IMG/VR virus record: IMGVR_UViG_3300010413_002638
Coordinates: 48,805 to 112,804 of that record
Origin: a virus
Strand: one strand, 5' to 3'
Length of the DNA: 64,000 nucleotides
Shown here: positions 6,624 to 49,769 of the stretch, piece by piece
Position numbering within the stretch: position 1 is the first letter of the stretch
How the letters are laid out: each line of letters begins with the position of its first letter
Translations under genes and position numbers: made by a program
Notes under the pieces: model-generated
Database searches by the model: none
What the model was told of the DNA's origin: nothing
What the model saw: the letters and a program-made list of their open reading frames with translations, nothing else

Positions 6624-9368
6624 CTATTTATTCAACTTCTCCATCCTCTCCGCCTCATAGGCTTCTCTCCAACCACGATGGAGTAGTTTAATAATTACCT
6701 CACCTCGCACCAAAGTGAAGGTATTGCGCATCTCATCATATTCGACAAAGAGCTGCACACCAGTACCAGGTTGCTGGATCATCTCTAAATCCTGCATCAA
6801 CAGAGCCTTGCCAAAAAGCATCACCAGAGTGCTTTGGATGCCGTCACTAATCACCAGTCTACCGTATGGCTTGTTGTTCTTTGATTCCGCCATTTCAAAA
6901 CCTATGATAACGCCCTCCAATTTGGCCTCACCATTCTTAACGGAATTCACTTTCGCATCTTCAATAGTGCAACCGCCCTCTATCTCATACACATCCAAAG
7001 GAGAGTGTAAATAATATCCAAGATATTCCTTCTCGAACTCAAGCATTTGTTCAATAGTGAAGTCCTCTGGAAACAAGGACATTACTTTCTCGGGAGAATC
7101 ATCAGGGACCGGCTTCCAATTCTCCATTTTGGTCGGAACCTTGCGGCGATTTGGATATGCTTTGAAATATTCATCAATTTGGCGTTGACGTTCTTGTTCG
7201 ATAGCTTCGTCCGTCCAATCATCCAGCAGCAACAATTTTCGCCTTATCTCCTGGCGGAGCTTGGTGATGTCCTTGCCACTGCAATATTTGTACCTGTAAT
7301 ACTCCCAAGTCGCCTGAGCATTTTCGTATCCTGGAAACTGCCTGAATGACCCCAATTTGATGAAACGCTCAAAAACCGACTTGTCCTTCCCTGCCGAGTC
7401 AACCATATCATCCAAAGAAGTAAATTGCCGTTGGCTGGTCCATTTTTTAGCGGCAACATCGCCCAACCCCTTGATGCCAATCAAACCCTGGTTCACCACA
7501 TCGCCCGTAACCGTGAAATTGGCGGTCATATTCTCCACATTGATCGTGTCGAACTTCACGCCACGAGCACGTTGCTTCGGTTGGAACTTGCCACAATACG
7601 TGATATCCGTCGGTTCCCAGTTCTCAGACCGTGCCACGCCCATATAACGAACGAGTTTGTCCGGATGGCAATCGCTCATCACCGCCGCCCAGAACTCTGG
7701 CGCGAAATGAGCCTTCAACCATAAACATCGATGAGCCACCAGGCAATAACTGACAGCATGGCTGCGGTTAAACGCATATCGCCCAAACGTCTCCATCTTC
7801 GTCCACCACTGCTCCGCTTCCTGCTCACCCAAAACACGCGAAGCACCGCGTACCCATTTCTCCTTGATGGGCTTGAGCTTGTGCGTCCATTTCTTGGCTA
7901 CAGCCTTACGAGCCTCCTGAGCCTCCGGAGCCGTAAAACCAGCCACAAGCTGCCAAATAGCCTGCAACTGCTCCTGATAAACAATGACTCCATAAGTGTC
8001 TTTCAAGACACTAAGAATATCCGGATGTAATTTCTTCTGCCAACGGCCTGATGTATCATCGCGGTTTGCCACCGCATCCGGAATAGAGGCCATAGGACCA
8101 GGATGCCCCATGGCATTAAAGAGCATCAGATCCTCAAAATTCCGTACACCATTCTGCAAGATACTCTTGGCCAGATTCGTATCGAATTGAAAAACGCCAT
8201 CTGTCTTCTGGGCGTTTGCCAGTGCAAGCGCGTACTCGTCATTTAGGTCAATATATCGTTTATTCCCGTCGCCGTCGAAGAAATGACCAGCTCGGCTTTG
8301 TGTAGGATCAATATCATCCCATCCGTCCATGTTCTTGCCAAAAGAGATACCACGATTCCGCTCGATCAATTTGCAACATTCGAAGATATACTTGAGCGTC
8401 TTGAGACCGAGAATGTCCCACTTAACATAACCAAACTTGGACAGCTGTGTGTTACGGCCTTCCGTCCACATGCTGATCCAATAGCCACCCTTCTTGCTCT
8501 TAGCCAGCGGAATATTGCCGTAGAGAGAGCGATCGGCAATAATCAGGGCACCAGCGTGCATACCCATATTGCGAACGCGACCTACCAACTTGACCGCATA
8601 ATCAACGATCTTAGGGTGCTTCTTGGCGAATTTGAGGAGATCTTCATGGTCTCGCAGAAGTTTACCAATAGTAATTCCATCTGTGTCAGCAGATCCGCAT
8701 TTAGGGCACTTGGTAGCGTTATGCGAATGCCCACATTCAGTCTCTTCACCGGTATCTGCATTGACGACACGGCCCTTACAATTAGACTTGCCTCCATCCT
8801 TTAGATCATCCACTTCATCCGGCAGATTGGTCGTAAGTGATAAAATCTCCTGTTTATCCAGCCAGCCGGTGGCGGCACAGACATCGATAAGAGCAGATCG
8901 GAATTTGTAGGTTGTCCATGTGCCCACACTGCAGACAGCACCATAACCGTCTTTGATGTGCGCACCGAATTTCCGCATCGCATATTCTTTAATAGGATCA
9001 CGGGCTTCCGGTAGACAATCTATATCAATATCCGGTTGGTCTGGATCTTTGATGAGATCAGGCGGGATAAAGCCCTGGTCGCGCTTGAAATCTGATACCA
9101 CAGAAGCCCGCACGCTATTGAGCATGGGCGTGGTGCGAGCAGCAATCGGGTCTCCTTCGACCATTCCCAACAACCACGGCAACAAAAGAAAGTTGGGATT
9201 AGAAGAGAATTTCTTGCCGTCGTTGTAGAGATTCGTCCAGTAAGTGATAGCACCTTGCTTCTCAACTTCCTGGATTTCGAATTTCAGCCGTTCTTGATAC
9301 TCTTGGCCGTTCTTGCGATTTGCTTTGTTTGCTATCTCTTTGATTTCTTGCCAAGAGACTTCAGCCAC
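6624..9368 (-). CDS. dnaE: DNA polymerase III alpha subunit, catalytic (C-terminal) half
   Basis: 914 residues of a C-family replicative polymerase lacking the PHP domain. PDIDIDC (112-118) carries the metal-binding aspartates; the third Asp is D318 in WDILGLKTL. Fingers (GVIVYQEQ ... FGRYAFNRSHAVSY), the helix-hairpin-helix (GLIGIKGLGDVAA) and a C-terminal OB fold (about 800-880) follow in normal order. An extra zinc ribbon (C197, C212, C221, C224) is inserted in the palm/fingers region. Residues 24-75 weakly repeat the segment that ends the PHP half. The start is GTG at 9368, with GAGG about 10 bases upstream. The missing GxGSxxGS motif is encoded separately at 10663-12081. Confidence 0.9.
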   Translation of the reverse strand: MAEVSWQEIKEIANKANRKNGQEYQERLKFEIQEVEKQGAITYWTNLYNDGKKFSSNPNFLLLPWLLGMVEGDPIAARTTPMLNSVRASVVSDFKRDQGFIPPDLIKDPDQPDIDIDCLPEARDPIKEYAMRKFGAHIKDGYGAVCSVGTWTTYKFRSALIDVCAATGWLDKQEILSLTTNLPDEVDDLKDGGKSNCKGRVVNADTGEETECGHSHNATKCPKCGSADTDGITIGKLLRDHEDLLKFAKKHPKIVDYAVKLVGRVRNMGMHAGALIIADRSLYGNIPLAKSKKGGYWISMWTEGRNTQLSKFGYVKWDILGLKTLKYIFECCKLIERNRGISFGKNMDGWDDIDPTQSRAGHFFDGDGNKRYIDLNDEYALALANAQKTDGVFQFDTNLAKSILQNGVRNFEDLMLFNAMGHPGPMASIPDAVANRDDTSGRWQKKLHPDILSVLKDTYGVIVYQEQLQAIWQLVAGFTAPEAQEARKAVAKKWTHKLKPIKEKWVRGASRVLGEQEAEQWWTKMETFGRYAFNRSHAVSYCLVAHRCLWLKAHFAPEFWAAVMSDCHPDKLVRYMGVARSENWEPTDITYCGKFQPKQRARGVKFDTINVENMTANFTVTGDVVNQGLIGIKGLGDVAAKKWTSQRQFTSLDDMVDSAGKDKSVFERFIKLGSFRQFPGYENAQATWEYYRYKYCSGKDITKLRQEIRRKLLLLDDWTDEAIEQERQRQIDEYFKAYPNRRKVPTKMENWKPVPDDSPEKVMSLFPEDFTIEQMLEFEKEYLGYYLHSPLDVYEIEGGCTIEDAKVNSVKNGEAKLEGVIIGFEMAESKNNKPYGRLVISDGIQSTLVMLFGKALLMQDLEMIQQPGTGVQLFVEYDEMRNTFTLVRGEVIIKLLHRGWREAYEAERMEKLNK

Positions 9369-9730: not shown

Positions 9731-10172
9731 CCGGCAAATGGTCCACAGTCTGTGAATCGTATTGTTGCTGAGATAGACAAATCCTGCTCGCTAGCGACCG
9801 GCAGACAGCAAGATTTTCGTTATTGGGCGAATCAACTACAAATCCGACATCTTCGAAGAACCCCACCCATCGTACGAACTCATCTATCTCCTGCTTGTAT
9901 CCTTTCACATCGCCCCTCAAATAATTTAATACTGTCTCGTCGGGGAAGTGCATAATTATTTTAAGTTTTCGACAGGCCGGATTAACAGCGGCCAAAGCCA
10001 ATTTAGCAGCCTGGATCTTAGCCCTATCGATCTCGGAACCACCTAGCCCAAAACCCAACAACCGACACCGCACCTGGTCATTAGAGCTAAACATTAGAAG
10101 AATACCACACGAACTCAATTGCATGACCTCGTTGGCATTCCTGATAGAAATCGCACAGAAAATATCGATCAT
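9717..10172 (-). CDS. RNase H-fold protein, catalytic residues apparently lost
   Basis: 151 residues. The order resembles RNase HI: a first strand (MIDIFCAIS), a second strand (CGILLMFSS), a third (CRLLGFGLGG), then a helix (RAKIQAAKLALAAV) and the fourth strand (KLKIIMHFPDETVLNYL). The positions expected to hold the metal ligands read Ala/Ile in strand 1 and Lys in the helix instead of Asp and Glu; only an Asp near 78 remains, one residue off. A structural or nucleic-acid-binding role is therefore more likely than nuclease activity. It starts at an ATGA overlap with the MazG-like gene. The RNase H assignment is by pattern and needs a profile search. Confidence 0.5.
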   Translation of the reverse strand: MIDIFCAISIRNANEVMQLSSCGILLMFSSNDQVRCRLLGFGLGGSEIDRAKIQAAKLALAAVNPACRKLKIIMHFPDETVLNYLRGDVKGYKQEIDEFVRWVGFFEDVGFVVDSPNNENLAVCRSLASRICLSQQQYDSQTVDHLPDEQD

Positions 10173-10663
10173 AGTAGATTATTCTTGAGATCTCGGATCT
10201 CTGGGTAAGTCGATTTGGTATACGATTGTAGGGCACGCAACGCCTCAGCAATCCCCCGCAAAACAGCATTTTTTGCCGCTCGCTTGTCAGGTAGACCCCG
10301 CGACCTACCCACCAACACCAACAATTGATCGGCGTGAGCCTTCACGTTGTCCGGGAATGTCTCATCCTTGGCTTGGGCCTTTATCATCCGTTCATCAAAA
10401 GAACGCTGTAGCCAAATAGCCAAAGATTCAATCACGTGGAAAGACAAATCAGCACATTCTTTCTCCACCCTGGCGAGGCAAGTTTTTCTATTACCCTCAT
10501 TCTCCAAGGCGTTATACAAGTCATCCACCACATCAAGTAATTTCACCAGGAACACTGACAACTGGGGGCTTGGACCGCCCTGCAGCAGAACATGTGTATA
10601 GATGGAATGCTTCAATTCAGCAAGAGATTCGGTGGCCGACGGGCCAATAGGTGTCTGCATCAT
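10169..10663 (-). CDS. Helical protein, possible MazG-like nucleotide pyrophosphohydrolase
   Basis: 164 residues, almost all helix. D44-x2-D47 in one helix and E69-x2-D72 (KECADL) in the next recall the ExxE ... ExxD metal site of MazG-like all-alpha NTP pyrophosphohydrolases, with Asp replacing Glu in the first pair. If correct, it would hydrolyse a (d)NTP to (d)NMP, which matters because a MazG-type enzyme supplies dGMP to PurZ in 2-aminoadenine phages. The evidence is thin, and a plain helical accessory protein is the alternative. Its ATG overlaps the PHP-half stop by one base; the second ATG at 10660 is also possible. Confidence 0.4.
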   Translation of the reverse strand: MMQTPIGPSATESLAELKHSIYTHVLLQGGPSPQLSVFLVKLLDVVDDLYNALENEGNRKTCLARVEKECADLSFHVIESLAIWLQRSFDERMIKAQAKDETFPDNVKAHADQLLVLVGRSRGLPDKRAAKNAVLRGIAEALRALQSYTKSTYPEIRDLKNNLL

Positions 10664-12081
10664 TACTCACTCGGCATTTTGACGTTCAACATGTATCCAC
10701 CACGGCTCGACGCCAGGAACCGGTCAAACGAAAGACCCCACAACAATGGGTCCAAGACGTGAATCCCCAGCAGAAAACAAACCAGCGAACCGCCAGCACT
10801 TCCACGTGGACTGAAAGGCCAACCTCGTTTCTTTCCGTACTTAATAAGATCCTTGGTGATAAGGAAGTAGCTAGCGAACCCTTTATCAATAAACCGGTTC
10901 AATTCAATACTAGCCTGTTCCCTATAAGTCACCTCGCGGCCATCGATGAGAAATTTGGTCTTACATTTCTCCAATCCACGCCACCGCAATTCCTTAATGA
11001 CCAGTTTACACAACTCATTATCAGCATCAGATATCTCGGGATATTTGGGAGCAGTATCAACACCAAATTTCTCACAGCGATCGGCAACCATTAGGGTATT
11101 ATCGCACAATTGATCAAAAGTTCGGTTGTCTATGCCGTTACTGTAATTGCCGTTACGGAACGTGGCCCATAATTCTGCCCGCGACTTCATGAATTGTTCA
11201 TCACTATTGACATGGAATAGATCCGGCGAATCGATGGTTGTTTCCTGGGCGACAGCCATCATCAGTTTCTGCAATATGAAGTCAGCTCGATTGAGATAAT
11301 GACAATCATTGGTGAGTACAACAGGAATCTTGAAGAAATCAGCGATAGATATCAACTCACGAAATACCTTATCATCCTCTGGGATGCCAGGCATTTGAAC
11401 TTCAAGATAATAGTCCTGGCCGAATGCTTTCTTGAACTTCTTGATGTATTCGACAGCCGCGTCTAATCTGGCCTTCTTTTTCCGCTCGACCAGAACCTTT
11501 CCTTCTTTGTCGGTGAGCTGTTTATAGCGAAGCTCATGAGACACTGGCCCATTTAGACACCCAGACAACACTATGAGTCCTTCGCGAAACTCGCAAAGTT
11601 TATCGAACCAGATCCTATTGTATTGTGTACTACCCATACCGAATAGACCGGTCTCATAAGCTTGGGTTGTCAATCTTACGAGATTATGAAATCCGGTTTC
11701 ATTCTTGCAAAGGACCGTCAAATGTCTATTGCGCCTGATACGGCTGGAAGTGTCTGGATTTTCTTCCTGCCATTCTTTCGAGCGAAATTTGATTCCTTTT
11801 GCCACCAGTTCTTGTCGTAATGGTTCGAAGTCATTGAAGTAAATTTCGCAACCTGGGATGTACTTCAAGCCGTGCTTCTTGAAGGCGAGATACATGTCAG
11901 GCACGGAAGCCATATGGCCGTGCTCTGTAGCACTCATAGCGGAGTAGCCGCGAGCTGCACATTGCTCGGCATACTGTTCTGGCGTAGCCACGCCGTCCAG
12001 AGCTGAAAAGACGGTGTGATTGTGCAGGTGCACGAAATCAGAAGGGCCGGTATATTCTTCAGGACTGAATTCTTCTGACAT
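10663..12081 (-). CDS. dnaE: DNA polymerase III alpha subunit, N-terminal half with PHP domain
   Basis: 472 residues. The PHP domain shows HLHNHTVFSALDG (18-30), EHGH (53-56), GCEIYF (78-82), LSGCLNG and NDCHYL: the set of His/Asp/Glu/Cys metal ligands looks intact, so a metal-dependent 3'-5' proofreading activity is plausible. After the PHP domain come the palm-proximal helices and PRGSAGGSLVCFLLGI, the nucleotide-binding GxGSxxGS-type motif, and SFDRFL. The protein then stops about 15 residues later, just before the PDxDxD motif, which is on the separate ORF 6624-9368. Both halves are needed for one active site, so they must associate. It overlaps the upstream gene by 23 bases. Confidence 0.9.
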   Translation of the reverse strand: MSEEFSPEEYTGPSDFVHLHNHTVFSALDGVATPEQYAEQCAARGYSAMSATEHGHMASVPDMYLAFKKHGLKYIPGCEIYFNDFEPLRQELVAKGIKFRSKEWQEENPDTSSRIRRNRHLTVLCKNETGFHNLVRLTTQAYETGLFGMGSTQYNRIWFDKLCEFREGLIVLSGCLNGPVSHELRYKQLTDKEGKVLVERKKKARLDAAVEYIKKFKKAFGQDYYLEVQMPGIPEDDKVFRELISIADFFKIPVVLTNDCHYLNRADFILQKLMMAVAQETTIDSPDLFHVNSDEQFMKSRAELWATFRNGNYSNGIDNRTFDQLCDNTLMVADRCEKFGVDTAPKYPEISDADNELCKLVIKELRWRGLEKCKTKFLIDGREVTYREQASIELNRFIDKGFASYFLITKDLIKYGKKRGWPFSPRGSAGGSLVCFLLGIHVLDPLLWGLSFDRFLASSRGGYMLNVKMPSE

Positions 12082-13682: not shown

Positions 13683-14428
13683 TGGTAAACAAGATTTCCA
13701 TATTGATGGCTATCTATAACTGTGCAGATTATCTGCCAGCGTCCATTGAAAGCATATTAGGCCAAACAGTAGGAGATTTCGAATTTATCATCATAGACGA
13801 CGGCTCAGACGAATCGGTAATGGAGATATTAGAATGGTACAACGACAGGCGTATCAAAATTATCAGAGTCGATGAGAATGTCGGCTTGACCCGTTGCCTA
13901 AACATCGCCTTAGACGTAGCTACTGGCAATATATTCGCACGTCATGACGGGGATGATATTGCATTACCAGACAGACTGGCAATAGAATTACCATTACTTA
14001 CTGGGCGTACCGGTCTAGTGAGCTGCTGGGCGGAGCCCATCAACGAAAATGGAGAGATAATCAAAGACGACTGGACAGAGCAAGAATTGCAAAGAGAAGC
14101 TGATGAAGTAGAAAAGTTGATGTCCCAAACAAACTGCGTGTTGGCCCCAGGAGCAATATTCACCAGAGAAGTGTTCGAACGAATAGGATATTTCGATCCA
14201 GAAGTCAGATATGCACAAGATTATAATTACTGGTTGCGATTGATGAACGAGTTTACCATCAACATCGTGCCAGAGGTATTAGTGCAAAAGAGAGTCCATA
14301 AAGAATCAGTGTGGGGCCAAGAAGAAGAGCACGACCAAGATTGGCGACAAATAGCCAAAGACAGAGCCACAACAGATCCAACGATTTTTCAAGTAGAGCA
14401 TCCCCCATTTCATTGGAGAAGGCATTGA
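13682..14428 (+). CDS. Family 2 glycosyltransferase
   Basis: 248 residues of a classical GT-A enzyme: ISILMAIYNCADYLPASIESILGQT, IIIDDGSDE (37-44), LTRCLNIAL, and the DxD motif RHDGDDIA (D89, D91, D92). An acidic YAQDYNYWLRL segment supplies the likely catalytic base region. It is a single catalytic domain without membrane segments, so cytoplasmic. The donor and acceptor sugars cannot be read. Its ATG overlaps the previous stop by one base (TAATG), and its own stop overlaps the TTG start of the radical SAM gene, so the transferases and the radical SAM enzyme are translationally coupled. Confidence 0.88.
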   Translation: MVNKISILMAIYNCADYLPASIESILGQTVGDFEFIIIDDGSDESVMEILEWYNDRRIKIIRVDENVGLTRCLNIALDVATGNIFARHDGDDIALPDRLAIELPLLTGRTGLVSCWAEPINENGEIIKDDWTEQELQREADEVEKLMSQTNCVLAPGAIFTREVFERIGYFDPEVRYAQDYNYWLRLMNEFTINIVPEVLVQKRVHKESVWGQEEEHDQDWRQIAKDRATTDPTIFQVEHPPFHWRRH

Positions 14429-15618
14429 AACTTTCACATTACGTAGTTCGTACTTTTTCTGGTGAACAAGATATACTTTTTCATACAGTCACAAGAAAAG
14501 TGCTGCTAGCAGATGCCGATGAGAAAACATTGGCAGAGAATTTCTTTTATGCTGGCCAAGAGAAACAAGCTGTCCTGGCGAAACTCGCACAACCACCGGA
14601 TGGTTGGTTTCACTTTCATTTATCTCCGACCTGGGAATGCAACCTTCGCTGTACACATTGCATGGTACGACATAGACTCATCAAAGATGACACCAATATT
14701 CTAGAGGTCGCACCAGTAATTCGTTTAGCACAACAAAGCAAACAACTATTCGACGTACGTCGAATGTCAGTGAACTTCTTCGGTGGCGAAAGCATGCTAG
14801 CCATCGATAAATGCAACGAAATCGTCGATGCGTTCAACGGGATTGATCTTGAACTGATGCACTTTCAGTTGTTCACGAACCTCACCATGGAACTAACCGA
14901 CAAGCATCTTGAATTCTTCCGGCAAGTCGATAGTATCGGCGTCAGCATAGACGGTCTGGAACAGATACACAATGCTCAGCGTATGCCGATTTCTCCCATG
15001 AATCCATTCGAAAAAACGATGCAAAATCTCAAAATATTGGTCAAGCAAGGCTGGAAAGAAAAAATCTCGATACAAGCCTGCCTAAGCGACCAACATAATA
15101 CACTAGATAATAGAGTTTCGTTCTACAGAACCATTCTGCAATTTGGCATTCGTCCACATAGGATTATGATTGGAACTATCGCTCCAACCAAGACCAATCC
15201 CACACCAGGCGACCATTACAAAAAAGGATTGCATCAAGTCAAATTGACTGACGGATTCTGTTGTAAGTATAGATTAAATAATCTGGTCATCGACAACACT
15301 GGGAATGTCTTCTCAGATTATTATTCATACACCAAAATAGGCACAGTGAATGATGACTTATTGATGCTATTGGGTGAAAAAGAAAAAATTACATTAGAAA
15401 CAGCCCCGGCTCTAAATGATCCAAAATGTCAGAAATGCCCAGCACTAGGCTTTTGTTGGGGCGGTTGCTCTGTCACAGAAAATGATGCACCACTTAGTAC
15501 ATATTGTAACCAAGACGGCATCATAGCTGTTATTGAAGAGGCAGCCAAGCTCGGCCAATTTAAGTTAGGAAATGAAAATGGCCTCCCCATCGACAGCCAA
15601 ACCCACTTATTTCACTGA
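14425..15618 (+). CDS. Radical SAM/SPASM enzyme next to Cys-rich small proteins
   Basis: 397 residues. C72-x3-C76-x2-C79 (CNLRCTHC) is the radical SAM 4Fe-4S site; FFGGES is the GGE-type SAM motif; VSIDG lies in strand 4. The C-terminal SPASM domain has CQKCPALGFCWGGC and a final YC, able to hold auxiliary clusters. This architecture is typical of peptide-modifying enzymes (sactionine, thioether, C-C crosslinks) and anaerobic sulfatase maturases. About 60 N-terminal residues before the barrel could be a peptide-recognition element. The start is TTG 14425, chosen because GGAGAAGG lies 5 bases upstream and TTGA overlaps the previous stop. It overlaps the first small-protein gene by 41 bases. 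Confidence 0.88.
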   Translation: MKLSHYVVRTFSGEQDILFHTVTRKVLLADADEKTLAENFFYAGQEKQAVLAKLAQPPDGWFHFHLSPTWECNLRCTHCMVRHRLIKDDTNILEVAPVIRLAQQSKQLFDVRRMSVNFFGGESMLAIDKCNEIVDAFNGIDLELMHFQLFTNLTMELTDKHLEFFRQVDSIGVSIDGLEQIHNAQRMPISPMNPFEKTMQNLKILVKQGWKEKISIQACLSDQHNTLDNRVSFYRTILQFGIRPHRIMIGTIAPTKTNPTPGDHYKKGLHQVKLTDGFCCKYRLNNLVIDNTGNVFSDYYSYTKIGTVNDDLLMLLGEKEKITLETAPALNDPKCQKCPALGFCWGGCSVTENDAPLSTYCNQDGIIAVIEEAAKLGQFKLGNENGLPIDSQTHLFH

Positions 15619-42268: not shown

Positions 42269-43569
42269 TAGCTAACGGGTGCGAGGCCGTTTAGGTGACA
42301 ATGAATACGGATTTGTTCGTGGCACTGTCCAATTGTTCTGTTGGGGACTCCTAAGAATTCTGCCATGTGGCATTTTCGGGGGTCACCATTTCCATAGATG
42401 TCGCTGAATTCCCGGTAGGTCTGTCCTTGACCGCTCTGAATGTCAAAAACGGCCTTACAGGTACCATCCGGTAAGGCGGCTCGTATTGCCTCCATGACAT
42501 CCCTATTATCTACTACTGCAACATGATCGTCTTGGTCCATTCTAGCTCCCTCAATCGTACGATAACCAATTTGTTTGATGGTAAATCCATTCTCATCAGC
42601 TTCATTTTCCTCCTGAAACATCACGTGCTCTGGCATACTCACGCGCGTGGTCATGCTGCGAGCATTACTATTCTTCAATACGCGAACAGCATTGCTCGTG
42701 GTTTCAATGGCTACCTCCTCCTTCAACGCCCGCTGACGGAGGAGAGCTAGTTCCACCGTGAATTCCGGTGGTGTCAAAAGGCCGACAACATATACTTCGA
42801 AGACTTTCTCGTCATAGTTCTCGGGGTCATAGCGGAAGTCAAGCTTCATCTTCCGGCAGATTGCCAAAAGCTCCTGCAAAATGACTTCGTCCGCCCGAGC
42901 GATAACGGTTCGCGGGGTCTTCCGGTGTTCCGCTCGTTCGTTCTCACGGATTTGTTGGCGAACGTAATTCCAGCCATATTCGCCAAAGAATTTGCTACGT
43001 TGGACCGGATCGTTGATGATCGACATGGGATCATCGTAGAATTTCTCGCCGGTCACATATTTGATGGCCGAACGGCATCGCGGGGGACGTTCATCATCGC
43101 CATATTGGGCAACGATTGCCTGGAACTGCTCATAGGGTAGGAATTGCCCTTTGGTTAGTTCTTCGCTGTCGCCAGGGTCCTTGATCTGAACGTGATCGCA
43201 GTTGGGGCAACGGAGCTGTTGGCGATCGATGGAGGCGACTTTGTTCCGTTTGGTGACGTAGCAGGAGCTACCACAGGCTTGGCAACGGAACTTGTATTTG
43301 CAGTGATAGAAGAGGTTGACGACACCTCGCCATACGGCGATATACCATTCTTGGTCGGCTATGGTGCGGTCGTCCCTGTAATCCCAGCCGATGGTTGCGC
43401 CAAGGCCGCGAATGATGCTGGCACGCTTGGCTTGCATGTCTGGATCGTTGACAATCGCGCGTACGATTTCATCGATTCGAACTCGGTCTTCCTCCGTGAG
43501 ATTCGCCATCGTAATGTTGGCGATACTGCCACGCAGGCACAACTTGGGCAGCTGTCGTTGTAGCGGCAT
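42268..43569 (-). CDS. Sigma-like protein with inserted zinc ribbon
   Basis: 433 residues. N-terminal helices (VRIDEIVRAIVNDPDMQAKRASIIRGL ... DQEWYIAVWRGVVNLFYHCKYKFR) resemble sigma region 2, interrupted by a zinc ribbon (CQACG ... CPNCDHV, about residues 95-127). The C-terminal QGQTYREFSDIYGNGDPRKCHMAEFLGVPNRTIGQCHEQI looks like a region-4 helix-turn-helix. The middle is unique. It may be a phage-specific sigma or DNA-binding regulator. AGGAG lies 6 bases before ATG 43569, supporting this long start over ATG 43509. Divergent from another sigma-like gene. Confidence 0.5.
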   Translation of the reverse strand: MPLQRQLPKLCLRGSIANITMANLTEEDRVRIDEIVRAIVNDPDMQAKRASIIRGLGATIGWDYRDDRTIADQEWYIAVWRGVVNLFYHCKYKFRCQACGSSCYVTKRNKVASIDRQQLRCPNCDHVQIKDPGDSEELTKGQFLPYEQFQAIVAQYGDDERPPRCRSAIKYVTGEKFYDDPMSIINDPVQRSKFFGEYGWNYVRQQIRENERAEHRKTPRTVIARADEVILQELLAICRKMKLDFRYDPENYDEKVFEVYVVGLLTPPEFTVELALLRQRALKEEVAIETTSNAVRVLKNSNARSMTTRVSMPEHVMFQEENEADENGFTIKQIGYRTIEGARMDQDDHVAVVDNRDVMEAIRAALPDGTCKAVFDIQSGQGQTYREFSDIYGNGDPRKCHMAEFLGVPNRTIGQCHEQIRIHCHLNGLAPVS

Positions 43570-43684
43570 ACAAAACTCCTAAACCAACGTTGCACAAAGA
43601 AAAGAGGTATATCTCGTTGATTCGGGAGTTCACCGTATTGGTGAGAACAAGATACACCCCATACACTGTTGCAAAGGAAATACA

Positions 43685-44440
43685 ATGGGTCAATACTGTG
43701 ATAGCCAAAAGCTAGAACATTACTGGTACCATTGGATATTAAGCTCATCCGTGCCAGCTTTGGAAGAATACCGCCGAAGAGGAATACTTTGGACCAAAGT
43801 GATTGGCTTTGCCCAACACGACGGGCAATTGCTACTGTCCAACGGAAAACCATTGCCAGACCCATCTCATCCAACCAGGTTGCATTGTTTGGCATTGGAT
43901 TATCCCCTATTCTTTCGGACAGAGGAAGGAATGCCAACAGCACCTATCTCCAATTTCGGACGGAATTTACGAGAATCGCCCGGTGAGATAAAATTCAAGT
44001 ATAAGAATTTAGCTCGCCGCCAAGCATCTGCGGACGAGGAATTGTTTGCTGAATTGAAGCGACTTGGGTACGCAAAAGAGTACACGACCGACCACAGTTG
44101 GCATAATATGTTGGAGGATATCAGGAATATATGTAATGGTATAGCGATGAAGTTTCGACTTAGCAGCGAAGATGAGCAATTGGACTTAGCGTCCGACGCC
44201 CTTCTCCAGGTCGTAAACAAGCTAGATTCAGGAAGGCTTGTGTACATGCCAGGCCGAGCCCCTGTCTTCAACCTGCTAACCACGACGACTTACAGAATTA
44301 TGTATAGTATTCTGAACAAAAAGAATGGTCAGAAGTATAGCATCCGAAAGCTTATAGATGATGCTGCGGCGGGTGTCTTGCCTGATTCTGGGCGAAGCAT
44401 CCGTGTGCCCACCATCCGATCTCCTATTAGATCACACTAA
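43685..44440 (+). CDS. gp55-like sigma factor
   Basis: 251 residues. The central-to-C-terminal part (about 139-215: HNMLEDIRNICNGIAMKFRL, EQLDLASDALLQVVNKLD, FNLLTTTTYRIMYSILNKKNGQ) resembles the region 2 core of T4-type gp55 late sigma factors (ARKYV...DMIQEAIVDAF ... FNYFTQICHNAF). The N-terminal 120 residues are unrecognised. A T4-like late sigma would recognise a TATAAATA-type -10 box. AGGAAA precedes ATG 43685. Together with 39730 and 42268 the window carries three candidate sigma-type proteins. Confidence 0.65.
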   Translation: MGQYCDSQKLEHYWYHWILSSSVPALEEYRRRGILWTKVIGFAQHDGQLLLSNGKPLPDPSHPTRLHCLALDYPLFFRTEEGMPTAPISNFGRNLRESPGEIKFKYKNLARRQASADEELFAELKRLGYAKEYTTDHSWHNMLEDIRNICNGIAMKFRLSSEDEQLDLASDALLQVVNKLDSGRLVYMPGRAPVFNLLTTTTYRIMYSILNKKNGQKYSIRKLIDDAAAGVLPDSGRSIRVPTIRSPIRSH

Positions 44441-44903: not shown

Positions 44904-45789
44904 GCGGACTATCATCAAGACGGTGCCAACTGTCCAGGTCATCGCTAAACCGGCACAGCAGAAAGTCCTAAAACTACAGGATATTCGGCCACCCAGCCCT
45001 CCAATCCCACAGAACTCAGCTGCCGTCGTTCAGCCAAAGAACGTCAAACGCCAGCGGAATATCCGGAAAAAGACCCACGTCCGTTACCAAACTCGCGACC
45101 CACTACCAGGATCACTGGAACGGACTAAGGCTATACAGGGTATGGGTCGTGGTAAGGTCCTCATCATTATTGGCAACGGCCCTTCCATATCAGAAGCGCC
45201 ACTAGACCAATTAGTTGGCGTACCTAATATCGAAATAATGTCAGTCAATCGACCTGACGAACGAATTTGGCCAACTACTTATTGGTCTTTCTTTGACCTC
45301 TCTCAAATGCGACGGCACGAGAAATTGTGGGAGAATTATGAAGGCTATATCTTCAATTCCACAGCTATTCGTCGCCAAAAAGCCAAATCTATTCAATTCA
45401 AGAATATAATGGGCCAAGGTTGGAGTCGAGATCTAACCAAAGGTATCCATATTGGTCGATCTTCTGTCTACGCTTCTATGCAGATAGCTATGTGGATGCA
45501 ATTCGCACATGTTTATGTCTTCGGGTGTGACATGAACCCCGACGGAATAAATGGTCAGTTGCATTTCTATGGTGTGAATCCTGATGTTGAACCCAACATC
45601 AGAGCGCAGCGATTCTTAAAGGAGTCAGAGTTCTACGTTAACGCCGCCGAGGTATTAACGGAAGAAGAACGAGCGAAGTTTACCTTTGCCACTGACTACA
45701 ACCCATGGGATTTTGTACATAAATACAATCAAATGTCGCACAAATCCATGGGTCCCATAATTGAACACGCTGCATCCCTAACACCATGA
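44854..45789 (+). CDS. DUF115 / GT42-like sugar-processing protein
   Basis: 311 residues. A basic, Pro-rich N-terminal 90 residues (probably disordered) precede a Rossmann-like domain: VLIIIGNGPSISEAPLDQL (about 100-120), IEIMSVNRPD, YWSFFDLSQ, then HIGRSSVYASMQIAMWMQFAHVYVFGCDMN. This order matches DUF115 (MptE-like) and sialyltransferase-like GT42 enzymes, as in the C-terminus of 22940-24358. It likely transfers or pyrophosphorylates a sugar or pterin-like group; a glycan role fits the window. It is followed by the deoxyribosyltransferase-like gene via ATGA. Confidence 0.7.
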   Translation: MAKNVVVCRVRPQLIRKRTIIKTVPTVQVIAKPAQQKVLKLQDIRPPSPPIPQNSAAVVQPKNVKRQRNIRKKTHVRYQTRDPLPGSLERTKAIQGMGRGKVLIIIGNGPSISEAPLDQLVGVPNIEIMSVNRPDERIWPTTYWSFFDLSQMRRHEKLWENYEGYIFNSTAIRRQKAKSIQFKNIMGQGWSRDLTKGIHIGRSSVYASMQIAMWMQFAHVYVFGCDMNPDGINGQLHFYGVNPDVEPNIRAQRFLKESEFYVNAAEVLTEEERAKFTFATDYNPWDFVHKYNQMSHKSMGPIIEHAASLTP

Positions 45790-46319
45790 CAAACAACCAA
45801 TCTGTTCCGCTCGGAAGAGTATATATTGCTTCTAGTCTGCACAACGCCGAGCGAGTAAAACACATCAAACAAAAGCTCGAATCATTGGGCGTAATGGTCA
45901 CTTATGATTGGACCGTGCACGGCCAAGTCTTCGACAAAGAGGAATTGATAAGAATAGCCATAGCAGAGGAACAGGGAGTAAGCGACGCGGACGTGTTCTT
46001 AATGGTATTTCCTGGTCGGACCGGTACGCACGTCGAGTTTGGGCTTGCTCGCGGATTGGGTATTCCGATCGTGCTGTTGGAAGAAGTAGAAGTAGAACAG
46101 AAATCATTTTATTATCTGCCTGGCCTCCATAAGACCCAAACGGAAGAAGAGGCCATCAGAGCAGTGTTGCGTATTTTGCAAGACAAAAATAGCTGGCCAA
46201 GCAGCGTCCCTAAAACCGTGGGTGAAGTGCTGCAACTGGTACCAAAGATCTTAGAATCGCTGAGGAGTGATAATGTCGATTTTCCACAAGCTCGAACTGG
46301 ATGTAATGCAGACCAATGA
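45786..46319 (+). CDS. Nucleoside 2-deoxyribosyltransferase / dNMP N-glycosidase-like protein
   Basis: 177 residues. RVYIASSLHNAERVKHIKQKLESLGVMVTYDWT matches the N-terminal strand and helix of the NDT superfamily, and SDADVFLMVFPGRTGTHVEFGLARGLGIPIVLL the conserved block with catalytic Glu (E84 in THVEFG). The family exchanges or hydrolyses the base of (deoxy)nucleosides or nucleotides (NDT, Rcl/DNPH1, BlsM types). Which of these cannot be told. Coupled by ATGA to the gene before, and its 3' end overlaps the DeoC-like gene by 47 bases. It lies 1.4 kb upstream of the PurZ-like gene. Confidence 0.75.
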   Translation: MTNNQSVPLGRVYIASSLHNAERVKHIKQKLESLGVMVTYDWTVHGQVFDKEELIRIAIAEEQGVSDADVFLMVFPGRTGTHVEFGLARGLGIPIVLLEEVEVEQKSFYYLPGLHKTQTEEEAIRAVLRILQDKNSWPSSVPKTVGEVLQLVPKILESLRSDNVDFPQARTGCNADQ

Positions 46320-46965
46320 ATTGGAAGATGCTGCTAAAATAGCGGTCAAGTATAACTTCCAGGCTATGGTCGTACACCCGCTGATTGTCACCGATGCCAT
46401 TTTCCTACGTGGTCGAACTCAGGGTAGGTATAAGATAATCACACCAGTTGATTGGCCCAAAGGCGAGAACTTTGGTATGGTCAAATTACGTGGTTTGTCC
46501 TCCGACGCCCTGGACGTCGATGGTTTCGAGATATTATTGACCGGCGATAAAACTCTGGTCGAGACCCGCAACGAAGCCAAGGTGTTGACCAATTTCATCA
46601 AGCAACAATTATCAGAATTGGTCGAAGTGCGATTTGTACTTGGCACGTCCCTGCGGACACCGGAAAATGTCGCTCACATGATGGAAGCGTTCAAGGATGT
46701 GAGAATTCCAGCTTATATCCGCAACGACCACCATCTAAAGTTGCAAGTGAGCAAGGCCAACGCCGACACGCATAATGCCTTTATGGACAAATTGTTCGAG
46801 ATATTTCGGGCACCGGTCAAGCTGAGTGGCAATATTAATACTGTCAGAGCGATTACCTCTTGTGATCGTGCACAACGGTTTGCCGTAAATATCAATCAAG
46901 CACGGACAATAATCAAAGAAGTCCACCAGCAACCAGAAGAATTGAAGTCAATTCTAGATGCTTGA
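46273..46965 (+). CDS. DeoC-like TIM-barrel protein
   Basis: 230 residues. The order LELDVMQTNELEDAAKIAVKYNFQAMVVHPLIV, KIITPVDWPKGE, DVDGFEILL, VRFVLGTSLRTPENVAHMMEAF, PAYIRNDHH and PVKLSGNINTVRA follows deoxyribose-phosphate aldolase. The Schiff-base Lys (FIKTSTG in DeoC) appears as Arg (R150), while the second Lys (K183, VKLSG) is kept. Aldolase activity is therefore uncertain; a related phosphate-binding role is possible. Adjacent to an N-glycosidase-like gene, it could remove deoxyribose 5-phosphate. ATG 46273 has GGAG 5-6 bases upstream. Confidence 0.65.
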   Translation: MSIFHKLELDVMQTNELEDAAKIAVKYNFQAMVVHPLIVTDAIFLRGRTQGRYKIITPVDWPKGENFGMVKLRGLSSDALDVDGFEILLTGDKTLVETRNEAKVLTNFIKQQLSELVEVRFVLGTSLRTPENVAHMMEAFKDVRIPAYIRNDHHLKLQVSKANADTHNAFMDKLFEIFRAPVKLSGNINTVRAITSCDRAQRFAVNINQARTIIKEVHQQPEELKSILDA

Positions 46966-47302
46966 AGCAATTTGCCCGGAGTGTGGCATAACCAATTCTT
47001 TCGACGAATCACAAGTAATCTACGAATTTGACTTCGTATATGTTCTTTGTTATAATTGCGGTAGCACGATAAAAATACAATGCGAGACAATAATCCCAGG
47101 AAGGTGTTCCGCAGAAATAAGTGCTCCCGTATTAGAAATTGGTGAAATTGTAAAAATAACTAATAGAGAACACGCCTGGTATGACGAAATCGCAATAATC
47201 CGCGCCAAGAAATTCAAGCATTATCGCATCGAAATACACGGTCAATTAATTTGGGTTCCAGAACACTGGGTAATATCCGATGAGCCTGATGACATTGATT
47301 AA
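46958..47302 (+). CDS. Zinc-ribbon protein with SH3-like C-terminus
   Basis: 114 residues. Zinc ribbon CPECG (6-10) and CYNCGS (31-36), then a beta barrel-like half (ISAPVLEIGEIVKITNREHAWYDEIAIIRAKKFKHYRIEIHGQLIWVPEHWV) resembling KOW/SH3 modules of transcription or translation factors. It overlaps the DeoC-like gene by 8 bases and the next gene by 23. Function unknown; a nucleic-acid-binding role is plausible. Confidence 0.65.
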   Translation: MLEAICPECGITNSFDESQVIYEFDFVYVLCYNCGSTIKIQCETIIPGRCSAEISAPVLEIGEIVKITNREHAWYDEIAIIRAKKFKHYRIEIHGQLIWVPEHWVISDEPDDID

Positions 47303-47651
47303 CGATCTTGGTGACAACGCCGATCTTCTGGTAAGGAGCGACGCTTGGCTCGAAAATGAGCGTCGATCCACCGCAGCAGAATTAGACCGATGCTGCAACG
47401 AACTGCGAGCCATTCAACTCGCCCAACGGATCAAGCGTGCGCTGCAACAAAAGAATATAGTAGCAGTGCAAGAATTAATCCATGACATAGATGGTAACAT
47501 ACAAGATATAGTAGTAAGAATACTAGATCTGCCCAAGGCTATCCAAAAGCTGAATGGCAAAGTCCCACAAGACACTCTAGACGCCATCAATTCTATGGCC
47601 CAAATCAAGGGCTGGCGGTCCGACGGCTACGACGTCGATCTCTTTCTCTAA
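47280..47651 (+). CDS. Helical hypothetical protein (123 aa)
   Basis: A long amphipathic helix region (LENERRSTAAELDRCCNELRAIQLAQRIKRALQQKNIVAVQELIHDI) suggests a coiled coil; no domain recognised. Its ATG lies inside the end of the zinc-ribbon gene. It is followed by a 101-base gap before the PurZ-like gene, which is probably transcribed from its own promoter or read through. Confidence 0.65.
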   Translation: MSLMTLINDLGDNADLLVRSDAWLENERRSTAAELDRCCNELRAIQLAQRIKRALQQKNIVAVQELIHDIDGNIQDIVVRILDLPKAIQKLNGKVPQDTLDAINSMAQIKGWRSDGYDVDLFL

Positions 47652-47752: not shown

Positions 47753-48937
47753 ATGTTGAGGACCAACGAAGTTGGTGGCCGAGTAGTAGTAACCGCTGAT
47801 GGTGGAGCCGGAAGTAGTGGCAAAGGAGCCTTCAACGCCTGGCTCGCTGACAAATATCCATTCGATGTTGCCACCAACAATTGGGCCACTAACGCCGGTC
47901 ACTTCGTAGAATGGATCGACAAAGATGGCAACAGACAACGAGTGCTCAACCAGCACATCTGCTCTGCCTTCGTCAACCCAAACACCGAGCTGCACATCAA
48001 CCCCGGTGCATCCCTCGACATCAAAACACTGTTGGACGAAATCGAGACACTAGAAAATCTCGGCTTCGAGATCAAAGACCGATTGAGTATCCATCCTCTG
48101 GCCAACGTCATTACGGAAGAAGACAAACTACAAGAAAAGGAAATCATCAAGAGCGGCAGTACCTTCAAGGGATGCGGAGCGGCCTTGGCCCGTAAAACAC
48201 TGCGAATTCCAGGACAAAAACTAGCTCGCGATTATGACGAGCTGCGGCCATTCATCGCAGATCGCACTCTTGACGTTCTCAACGCAATCGAAAAGGGTGC
48301 CAAAGTCCTCGTCGAAGGTGCTCAAGGTATCGACCTCGACATCAATTTTGCCGAATTCCCGCACGTCACCAGTCGTCAAACTCATCCAACACAACTCATG
48401 GCCGACGCCGGGCTCCCTTGTCAAGCTGTTACCAACACCATCATCAACCTGCGGACCAATCCTATCCGTATCAGCAACGTATCAGCGGCCAACGAAAATG
48501 AGCTGTGCTATACCGGCAATTACTGGGACGCCAAGGAAATCACCTGGGAAATCGTGGCAGAAAGAGCCGGATATGCCACATTCGAAGAATTCGTGAAGGA
48601 ATACGAATTTGCTATGATGACCTCGGTGACCAAAAAAGTCAGGCGAATCTTCGAATTCCCCAAGGTCCGTATGGAATTCCTGCATGCCCTGGTCGGCGGA
48701 AACCTGCCAGACAGCAGCGTTCTTTACAGCCTGAACTTCATGAATTTCATCGACCGAACGGTACGCGGCGTCAAGACCGAAGAAGAACTACTGACAGAAA
48801 AAGTTCGGGATTGGTTGCATACGAACCTCTCCGCCTCGGTGAGAAGCAAGTTGCGCTGGATTAGAACCGGTCCAGAACACACCGAAATCGTGGAACTTGT
48901 CGATTTCGCAGCCAAAGAAGCCAGCGTTCCAGTCTAG
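47753..48937 (+). CDS. purZ: PurZ-like adenylosuccinate synthetase (2-aminoadenine pathway type)
   Basis: 394 residues of the adenylosuccinate synthetase family, which joins aspartate to a purine nucleotide using GTP or ATP. Where PurA has the catalytic Asp in GDEGKG, this reads GSSGKG (20-25), so Asp is Ser21, the change typical of PurZ, which uses dGMP to make 2-amino-dATP precursors. Other PurZ-like landmarks: NAGH (47-50, catalytic His), INPGASLD, IHPLANVITEE, KGCGAAL, EGAQGIDLDI (188-197), HVTSRQ, TNPIRIS and SVTKKVRRIFEFP. As I recall the phiVC8 PurZ shows the same blocks. Longer than PurZ by an insertion near the C-terminus. It would feed modified dNTP for genome synthesis. Confidence 0.85.
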   Translation: MLRTNEVGGRVVVTADGGAGSSGKGAFNAWLADKYPFDVATNNWATNAGHFVEWIDKDGNRQRVLNQHICSAFVNPNTELHINPGASLDIKTLLDEIETLENLGFEIKDRLSIHPLANVITEEDKLQEKEIIKSGSTFKGCGAALARKTLRIPGQKLARDYDELRPFIADRTLDVLNAIEKGAKVLVEGAQGIDLDINFAEFPHVTSRQTHPTQLMADAGLPCQAVTNTIINLRTNPIRISNVSAANENELCYTGNYWDAKEITWEIVAERAGYATFEEFVKEYEFAMMTSVTKKVRRIFEFPKVRMEFLHALVGGNLPDSSVLYSLNFMNFIDRTVRGVKTEEELLTEKVRDWLHTNLSASVRSKLRWIRTGPEHTEIVELVDFAAKEASVPV

Positions 48938-48968: not shown

Positions 48969-49769
48969 ATGATCGAAAATCTCAAGGTCGCTGCGTATCT
49001 AGAAGACGCCGGTGAAGATCCGGCGTCAGCTTGCAAGACCATCAAGGATGCCGGTATAAACTATGTCATAATCCGGCATGTTTGGACATCCAATATCAAG
49101 GATTTATCGGATAGCGGCTGCGTCAAACTGCGCAAGATAATGTCCGATAACGGCGTAGCACCCGCCGCCATCTTATCCACAATAAGTGATGTTCCCGCCT
49201 CGGATTTGCCCAAAATAGATGACAAAACCGTAGACAGAACATTTAATCTTGCCAAATATTTTGGCGTGCCCATGATAGGGCTCACATGTGGTCTCAAGAC
49301 GGCTAATCAAGCTGATAAACAAATTGACCAATGGCTATACCGAATCACTAGCCAGGCCGCTTCTCTCAACATCAATTGTCTGATCGAGACGACCACCAAA
49401 AGCCACATATATGCTGCTGGTGAACTAGCTATGCTGTTAACCAAACACAAAACAATCAAATTAATATACGACCCAGCTCAACTTATCATTAGACAAAACA
49501 TCGATCCATTCATAAAATATTGGACTTTATTGAAGCAGTATGTCCGCGCCATCGATGTGCGCGACTACAAGATCGGACGTGGCTTCAAGCCAGCAGGACA
49601 CGGTGATACACACATTATCCGAACAGCGATGGATGCGATCAATTCAAATTATAATGGGTGGTTCTTTTTTGAGCCGTCTTTGGGCCGAAAACACGGTACT
49701 GCACAATCCAAAAGCGATGTTTTCAAAATGGCATTCACAGCCTTTAAGGACGCTCTTGGTCAAAGTTAA
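48969..49769 (+). CDS. Xylose-isomerase-like TIM-barrel protein
   Basis: 266 residues. Beta-alpha repeats typical of the AP endonuclease 2 / sugar isomerase superfamily: NLKVAAYLEDAG, INYVIIRHVW, VPMIGLTCG, INCLIETTTKS (metal Glu), KLIYDPAQLI (metal Asp), VRAIDVRDYKIG...PAGHGD (metal Asp/His), WFFFEPS (metal Glu). A divalent-metal isomerase, epimerase or endonuclease-IV-like enzyme is expected; the substrate is unknown. It lies 32 bases after the PurZ-like gene, so it is probably co-transcribed and may act on a sugar or nucleotide in the same pathway. Confidence 0.75.
   Translation: MIENLKVAAYLEDAGEDPASACKTIKDAGINYVIIRHVWTSNIKDLSDSGCVKLRKIMSDNGVAPAAILSTISDVPASDLPKIDDKTVDRTFNLAKYFGVPMIGLTCGLKTANQADKQIDQWLYRITSQAASLNINCLIETTTKSHIYAAGELAMLLTKHKTIKLIYDPAQLIIRQNIDPFIKYWTLLKQYVRAIDVRDYKIGRGFKPAGHGDTHIIRTAMDAINSNYNGWFFFEPSLGRKHGTAQSKSDVFKMAFTAFKDALGQS

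Follow-up and report, generated by a model that had tools for sequence, protein, structure and literature searches.

A PurZ-like synthetase in large phages with a split C-family DNA polymerase suggests a Z-system variant without DatZ

Can a phage with a PurZ-like synthetase, a C-family DNA polymerase and no visible DatZ carry 2-aminoadenine (Z) in its genome, and by what route would it do so? The question is raised by an open reading frame in a 64,000-nucleotide stretch of viral DNA (the window), which corresponds to bases 48805–112804 of the virus record IMGVR_UViG_3300010413_002638 (112,804 bases) and whose positions are used below unless stated otherwise. The remaining 48.8 kb of the record were also read. 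The closest relative, G005, measures 227.7 kb and the record of the window is about half as long, so that genes missing here may sit past the contig ends. The reading frame at the center of the question is the following.

47753–48937, plus strand: PurZ-like 2-amino-deoxyadenylosuccinate synthetase, 394 aa; PurZ models score best, PurZ clade, Ser/Thr/Asn signature

The original prediction called this protein PurZ-like on the basis of a Ser in place of the catalytic Asp of PurA in GSSGKG and of further blocks closer to PurZ than to bacterial PurA. The motif is indeed present, within ADGGAGSSGKG, and PurZ models rank first. In the family scan NCBIfam NF038379 (PurZ) was the top model at 1.8e-46, ahead of all PurA models, and phrog_1211 matched at 9.3e-43; the NCBIfam score of 158.7 bits lies below the curated cut-off of 300 bits, though this was the best-scoring model. 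A tblastn search against named phages returned 198 records, every one below 60% identity, with 'purA' of Bacillus phage vB_BpsS-140 as the nearest match at 36%. In a tree of 40 sequences, including PurZ0 and PurA, the window protein, that of vB_BpsS-140, the metagenomic relatives and the characterized PurZ of phiVC8, SH-Ab 15497 and S-2L formed one clade with support of 100/99. PurZ0 fell outside this clade and PurA further out, so that the phylogeny proposed along with the prediction sets the protein apart from PurA; its tree partner was L006 (61%). When GTDB genomes were scanned with PurZ alignment A1, no relative was confirmed.

The substrate-interacting residues specific to PurZ are S23, T273 and Q308 in the S-2L enzyme (PMC8342488). 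In the alignment, the window protein has Ser, Thr and Asn at the equivalent positions, which is the phiVC8 pattern, whereas PurA of E. coli and C. difficile has Asp, Gly and Asp. All three PurA residues (Asp13, the Gly and Asp333, which contacts guanine) are thus in the PurZ state, and the NAGH motif retains its His. The Ser of GSSGKG was rejected as sole proof of PurZ, since PurA-like proteins on Agrobacterium plasmids have GSEGKG. In the tree, two of these (L038:401-1321 and L039:501-1262) sit immediately outside the PurZ and PurZ0 sequences of phages. An Agrobacterium plasmid homologue has the Ser but Gly and Asp, as in PurA, at the remaining signature positions, and the full Ser/Thr/Asn signature separates the window protein from PurA and from the one Agrobacterium plasmid protein checked. 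Tree and residues together support the attribution to PurZ, for which the use of dGMP is predicted.

The PurZ gene is part of a conserved block with the order NDT-like enzyme, DERA-fold protein, two small ORFs, PurZ and TIM barrel. Its other members are as follows.

45786–46319, plus strand: NDT-family protein, 177 aa, candidate for a DmtZ-like role, as N-glycosidase acting on dAMP or as deoxyribose-phosphate transferase; PF05014, 4.1e-7
46267–46965, plus strand: DERA-fold protein of at most 232 aa, with an uncertain start codon and an overlap with the NDT gene; no Pfam match
46958–47302, plus strand: small conserved block ORF; homologues in the same place in relatives, no Pfam match
47280–47651, plus strand: second small conserved block ORF; homologues in the same place in relatives, no Pfam match
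48969–49769, plus strand: xylose-isomerase-like TIM barrel adjoining PurZ; PF01261, 3.3e-10; found 3' of PurZ in most relatives

The NDT-like protein matched MilB, NDTs and DNPH1 by profile and fold; its AF2 model matched MilB, other N-glycosidases and NDTs, with DNPH1 lower in the list. The protein keeps the catalytic Tyr13 and Glu84 of the NDT family, differs from DmtZ at the equivalents of Asp12 and Asn77 and showed no significant sequence kinship with DmtZ of Gordonia phage Ghobes (hhalign probability 4.7%; no phmmer match). The AF2 model of the DERA-fold protein (pLDDT 79.9) gave a best Foldseek E-value of 7.4e-11 at a TM of about 0.73, and nearly all of its top 50 matches were described as deoxyribose-5-phosphate aldolase. 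This kinship was seen by fold comparison only: the DERA-like profile gave nothing useful when searched against PDB sequences, and a comparison of the family profile to E. coli DeoC fell short of significance. The Schiff-base Lys of the KTSTG motif is Arg in the window lineage, as judged with moderate certainty from a remote alignment, and the proteins of L006 and L022 kept this Lys and lost the second one. On account of these changes we do not claim aldolase chemistry, and the reading of the gene as an ordinary aldolase was rejected because the Schiff-base Lys is missing. A reaction for the TIM barrel was likewise rejected, as it had weak PDB matches only and a single-protein scan returned no relatives. 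Neither the NDT-like nor the DERA-like protein had a tblastn match in named phages. Elsewhere in the window, a radical SAM protein (PF04055) is encoded at 14311–15618, among many ORFs that resemble glycosyltransferases and methyltransferases. The product of L003:13308-20600, 2430 aa with extended repeats of the SPSASPS type, probably belongs to the virion surface or the tail.

DERA-like and PurZ genes occurred together in 27 viral contigs (window included; some near-identical to each other), in records of up to 408 kb, which were reached by three independent queries. The DERA-like queries found 18 contigs besides the window, all 18 with PurZ within about 3 kb (one cut by a contig end); the usual gene order was NDT, DERA-like, small ORFs, PurZ, TIM barrel. 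Four more contigs with the gene pair came from the PurZ query, and the C-family polymerase query led to further contigs, four long ones of which carried NDT, DERA-like and PurZ genes. An NDT gene of one of two subtypes lay directly upstream in 24 of the 27. The second, larger subtype precedes the DERA-like gene in L006:5002-5595, L022:2498-3082 and L118-L121. Two unrelated-looking NDT subtypes thus occupy one position, as though for the same step.

PurZ was present in all 14 records of at least 120 kb that carry this DnaE lineage; the DnaE-lineage records without PurZ are shorter and may be fragments. The window PurZ is only 33–34% identical to those of its syntenic neighbors L015-L017, whereas the DERA-like protein (64%), the NDT (60%) and DnaE (68%) remain close to those of L015. 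It therefore appears that one PurZ replaced another in place, which implies that this position in the block is kept for a PurZ. Other members of the group vary in content. In a 137-kb relative (L052:11720-15358) the PurZ gene encodes 1212 aa with two inserts bearing intein-splicing, LAGLIDADG and homing-endonuclease domains. The jumbo phage L075 (395-kb record, G026) has PurZ, a C-family polymerase and a small PolA, and no DERA-like or NDT gene was found beside its PurZ. A tail sheath protein (PF04984) on a fragment of a relative (L033:8094-10985) indicates that at least part of the group is contractile-tailed, unlike the described Z-phages, which are siphoviruses and podoviruses (PMC8599892).

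The enzymes that control the nucleotide pool in known Z-phages were then a matter of presence or absence. DatZ (PF12917), which the original prediction had not seen in the window, was undetected in the whole record and in 13 related records and scored in three control phages. DUF5664 (PF18909) and DUF550/MazZ (PF04447) were undetected in the record and the group, the SH-Ab 15497 and S-2L controls being positive. The MazG model PF03819 had no matches, but missed the control phages as well and is therefore uninformative. A weak MazG-like candidate had been proposed, presumably 10169–10663 on the minus strand; it was not borne out, as no family model matched it and the DUF5664 and DUF550 models stayed empty across the record. 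The search of the rest of the record for DatZ, MazZ and DpoZ found none of them and a small PolA-like gene instead.

No enzyme converting dATP to dAMP was found in this record, dUTPases included. dUTPases are common in phages and were found in most relatives; in G005 the dUTPase is encoded about 33 kb beyond PurZ, further than the contig of the window reaches. In PurZ0 phages, DutZ and DUF5664 convert dATP to dAMP, and DmtZ, of the NDT family, hydrolyzes dAMP or transfers its deoxyribose phosphate to Z (PMC12884076). This published route of DutZ and DmtZ suggests that the NDT gene may do the job of DatZ. Its product is the likeliest pool enzyme, a predicted counterpart of DmtZ by fold and context. 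The proposal that other enzymes remove dATP hence gains a plausible NDT-like replacement, which the original prediction had not listed, while its first step, from dATP to dAMP, has no enzyme in the record.

The polymerase is encoded by two genes on the minus strand.

10663–12081, minus strand: N part of the C-family DNA polymerase, with PHP and the first section of the palm, 472 aa; PF02811, PF07733; phrog_405
6624–9368, minus strand: C part of the C-family DNA polymerase, with palm, fingers and HhH, 914 aa; PF07733, PF17657, PF14579

The split enzyme keeps the catalytic Asp residues, in the PDIDID and KWDILGL motifs of its C part. A C-family polymerase is present in most long relatives, and its pairing with PurZ, predicted from the window, was seen throughout the PurZ phage group. 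That it is the only replicative polymerase held within the window; outside it, genome positions 43218–44411 encode a PolA-like protein of 397 aa. Most large relatives likewise have a PolA of about 400 aa that lacks an exonuclease domain. This small PolA retains the motif A and motif C Asp residues, and its HDS at motif C is common to both aligned DpoZ sequences; its match to DpoZ was weak (8e-5), with otherwise general PolA similarity only. DpoZ proper, a PolA with 3'-5' exonuclease, was not found in the record. All phages with ZTGC-DNA but S-2L are stated to have a PolA polymerase, and the replicative enzyme of published Z-phages is the PolA-type DpoZ, with the S-2L PrimPol as the sole stated exception (PMC8342488). 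When S-2L genes were expressed in E. coli, Z entered the chromosome and plasmids, replacing only part of A (PMC8342488). Cellular polymerases therefore accept dZTP, and the extension of this to C-family enzymes is a reasonable inference.

A cultured phage bears on the same question. Bacillus phage vB_BpsS-140 (MH884512; DSM 29700) has a PurZ-clade enzyme with the Ser, and a split DnaE, listed as dnaE_1 and dnaE_2 (PMC6375668). Its two DnaE genes (L007:31760-35367) have no CDS in the annotation table, though they are in the genome paper. It shares with the window phage this PurZ, the split C-family polymerase and the lack of DatZ, and differs in being a 55-kb siphovirus with dUTPase and adenylate kinase genes, no NDT/DERA block found and no PolA match. 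DraI failed to cut its DNA, alone in its phage set, and cutting by EcoRI was reported (PMC6483233); the genome has 21 DraI and 24 EcoRI sites. As evidence for Z the restriction pattern is mixed, because cutting by EcoRI speaks against a fully Z-substituted genome, unless this enzyme tolerates Z.

We favor, with a probability of about 0.6, the reading that the phage makes Z nucleotides and most likely has a Z genome, that dATP is removed without DatZ and that the split C-family polymerase copies the genome. In its favor are the PurZ clade and residues, the linkage of the block, the exchange of PurZ in place, the missing pool enzymes of known Z-phages, the NDT-family precedent of the PurZ0 phages, the uptake of Z by E. 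coli and the DraI resistance of vB_BpsS-140. Against it count the cutting of that phage by EcoRI, the missing enzyme for dATP to dAMP, the distance of the NDT from DmtZ, the lost Schiff-base Lys and the additional small PolA. PurZ would condense aspartate and dGMP, with ATP, to succino-2-amino-dAMP (dSMP synthesis), which host PurB and kinases would carry on to dZTP. A pyrophosphatase, possibly the dUTPase of the relatives or another phage or host enzyme, would convert dATP to dAMP. The NDT-like enzyme would then split dAMP into adenine and deoxyribose 5-phosphate, or move the sugar phosphate to the Z base, and the DERA-fold protein may act on the released deoxyribose 5-phosphate. From a pool rich in dZTP and poor in dATP the split C-family polymerase would copy the genome, bringing Z into the virion. 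The wider version, in which a large-to-jumbo lineage (up to 408 kb) has Z genomes through the split C-family polymerase and destroys dA by a new module of NDT and DERA-fold proteins in place of DatZ/MazZ or DutZ/DmtZ, its very large genomes being fully Z-substituted, is in our judgment evenly poised between right and wrong.

Rather unlikely, but to be taken seriously, is a partial substitution, in which PurZ works, the polymerase is indiscriminate and dATP is not fully purged, giving a mixture of A and Z that blunts some nucleases. It would accommodate the resistance of vB_BpsS-140 to DraI along with its sensitivity to EcoRI (PMC6483233), the lack of a selective DpoZ-like polymerase and the incomplete replacement of A in E. 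coli with S-2L genes (PMC8342488). The linkage of NDT, DERA-like and PurZ genes in 24 of the 27 contigs, however, suggests active removal of the competing nucleotide, and in S-2L a non-selective PrimPol, together with pool control, achieves the replacement of all A (PMC8065100, PMC8342488). Improbable, too, is that the family-A polymerase of about 400 aa is a reduced DpoZ and the Z polymerase, DnaE having another role. Its conservation in most large relatives, the Asp of motifs A and C and the DpoZ-like HDS would fit; the missing exonuclease domain and the merely general similarity to PolA do not, other genes of the record, FEN-like and NAD-ligase-like, fit gap repair, and vB_BpsS-140 has PurZ and DnaE with no PolA match.

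More doubtful still is a genome of ordinary A, with PurZ making dZ nucleotides or just consuming dGMP for host takeover or counter-defense. The NDT-DERA pair could indeed serve general nucleotide breakdown, but PurZ nests with the enzymes of proven Z-phages and is present in 14 of 14 DnaE-lineage records of at least 120 kb, and the DraI resistance of vB_BpsS-140 (PMC6483233) also speaks against it. That the protein is a diverged PurA making adenylosuccinate from IMP we consider very improbable: a remote similarity to archaeal and bacterial PurA would fit, but it lies outside the PurA group with full support and all three PurA residues are in the PurZ state. We consider that these large phages have a real and widely conserved Z-system, probably with Z-DNA, which is a variant rather than a new category since PurZ itself is known.

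If Z-DNA is present in this group, it is copied by a third polymerase family, very large genomes can be Z-substituted and dATP removal has been solved in yet another way. Z-DNA may then be commoner, and assembled by more routes, than thought, and the finding offers a cultured test object in vB_BpsS-140 (DSM 29700) and new enzymes for laboratory Z-DNA.

In comparison with the known systems, the PurZ of the group is of the same clade and has the same substrate residues as that of phiVC8, SH-Ab 15497 and PMBT28 (PurZ with DatZ, MazZ or DUF5664-DUF550, and DpoZ). Unlike these phages, the group has no detected DatZ, DUF5664 or DUF550, a split C-family polymerase with an exonuclease-less small PolA, NDT and DERA-fold genes beside PurZ, and much larger genomes, the Z-phage records used here being about 39–68 kb. 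The PurZ0/DutZ/DmtZ systems of Gordonia phage Ghobes and Arthrobacter phage Wayne (PMC12884076) likewise have no DatZ and an NDT-family gene near the synthetase, and the dUTPases of most relatives add to this likeness; the group differs in having PurZ and not PurZ0, an NDT without detectable kinship to DmtZ, an extra DERA-fold protein and no DpoZ-1. The window phage, with its C-family polymerase and no DatZ or MazZ, differs from cyanophage S-2L (PrimPol, DatZ, MazZ, PurZ), with which it would share a Z-system that works without DpoZ and in which control of the pool would decide the base that is used.
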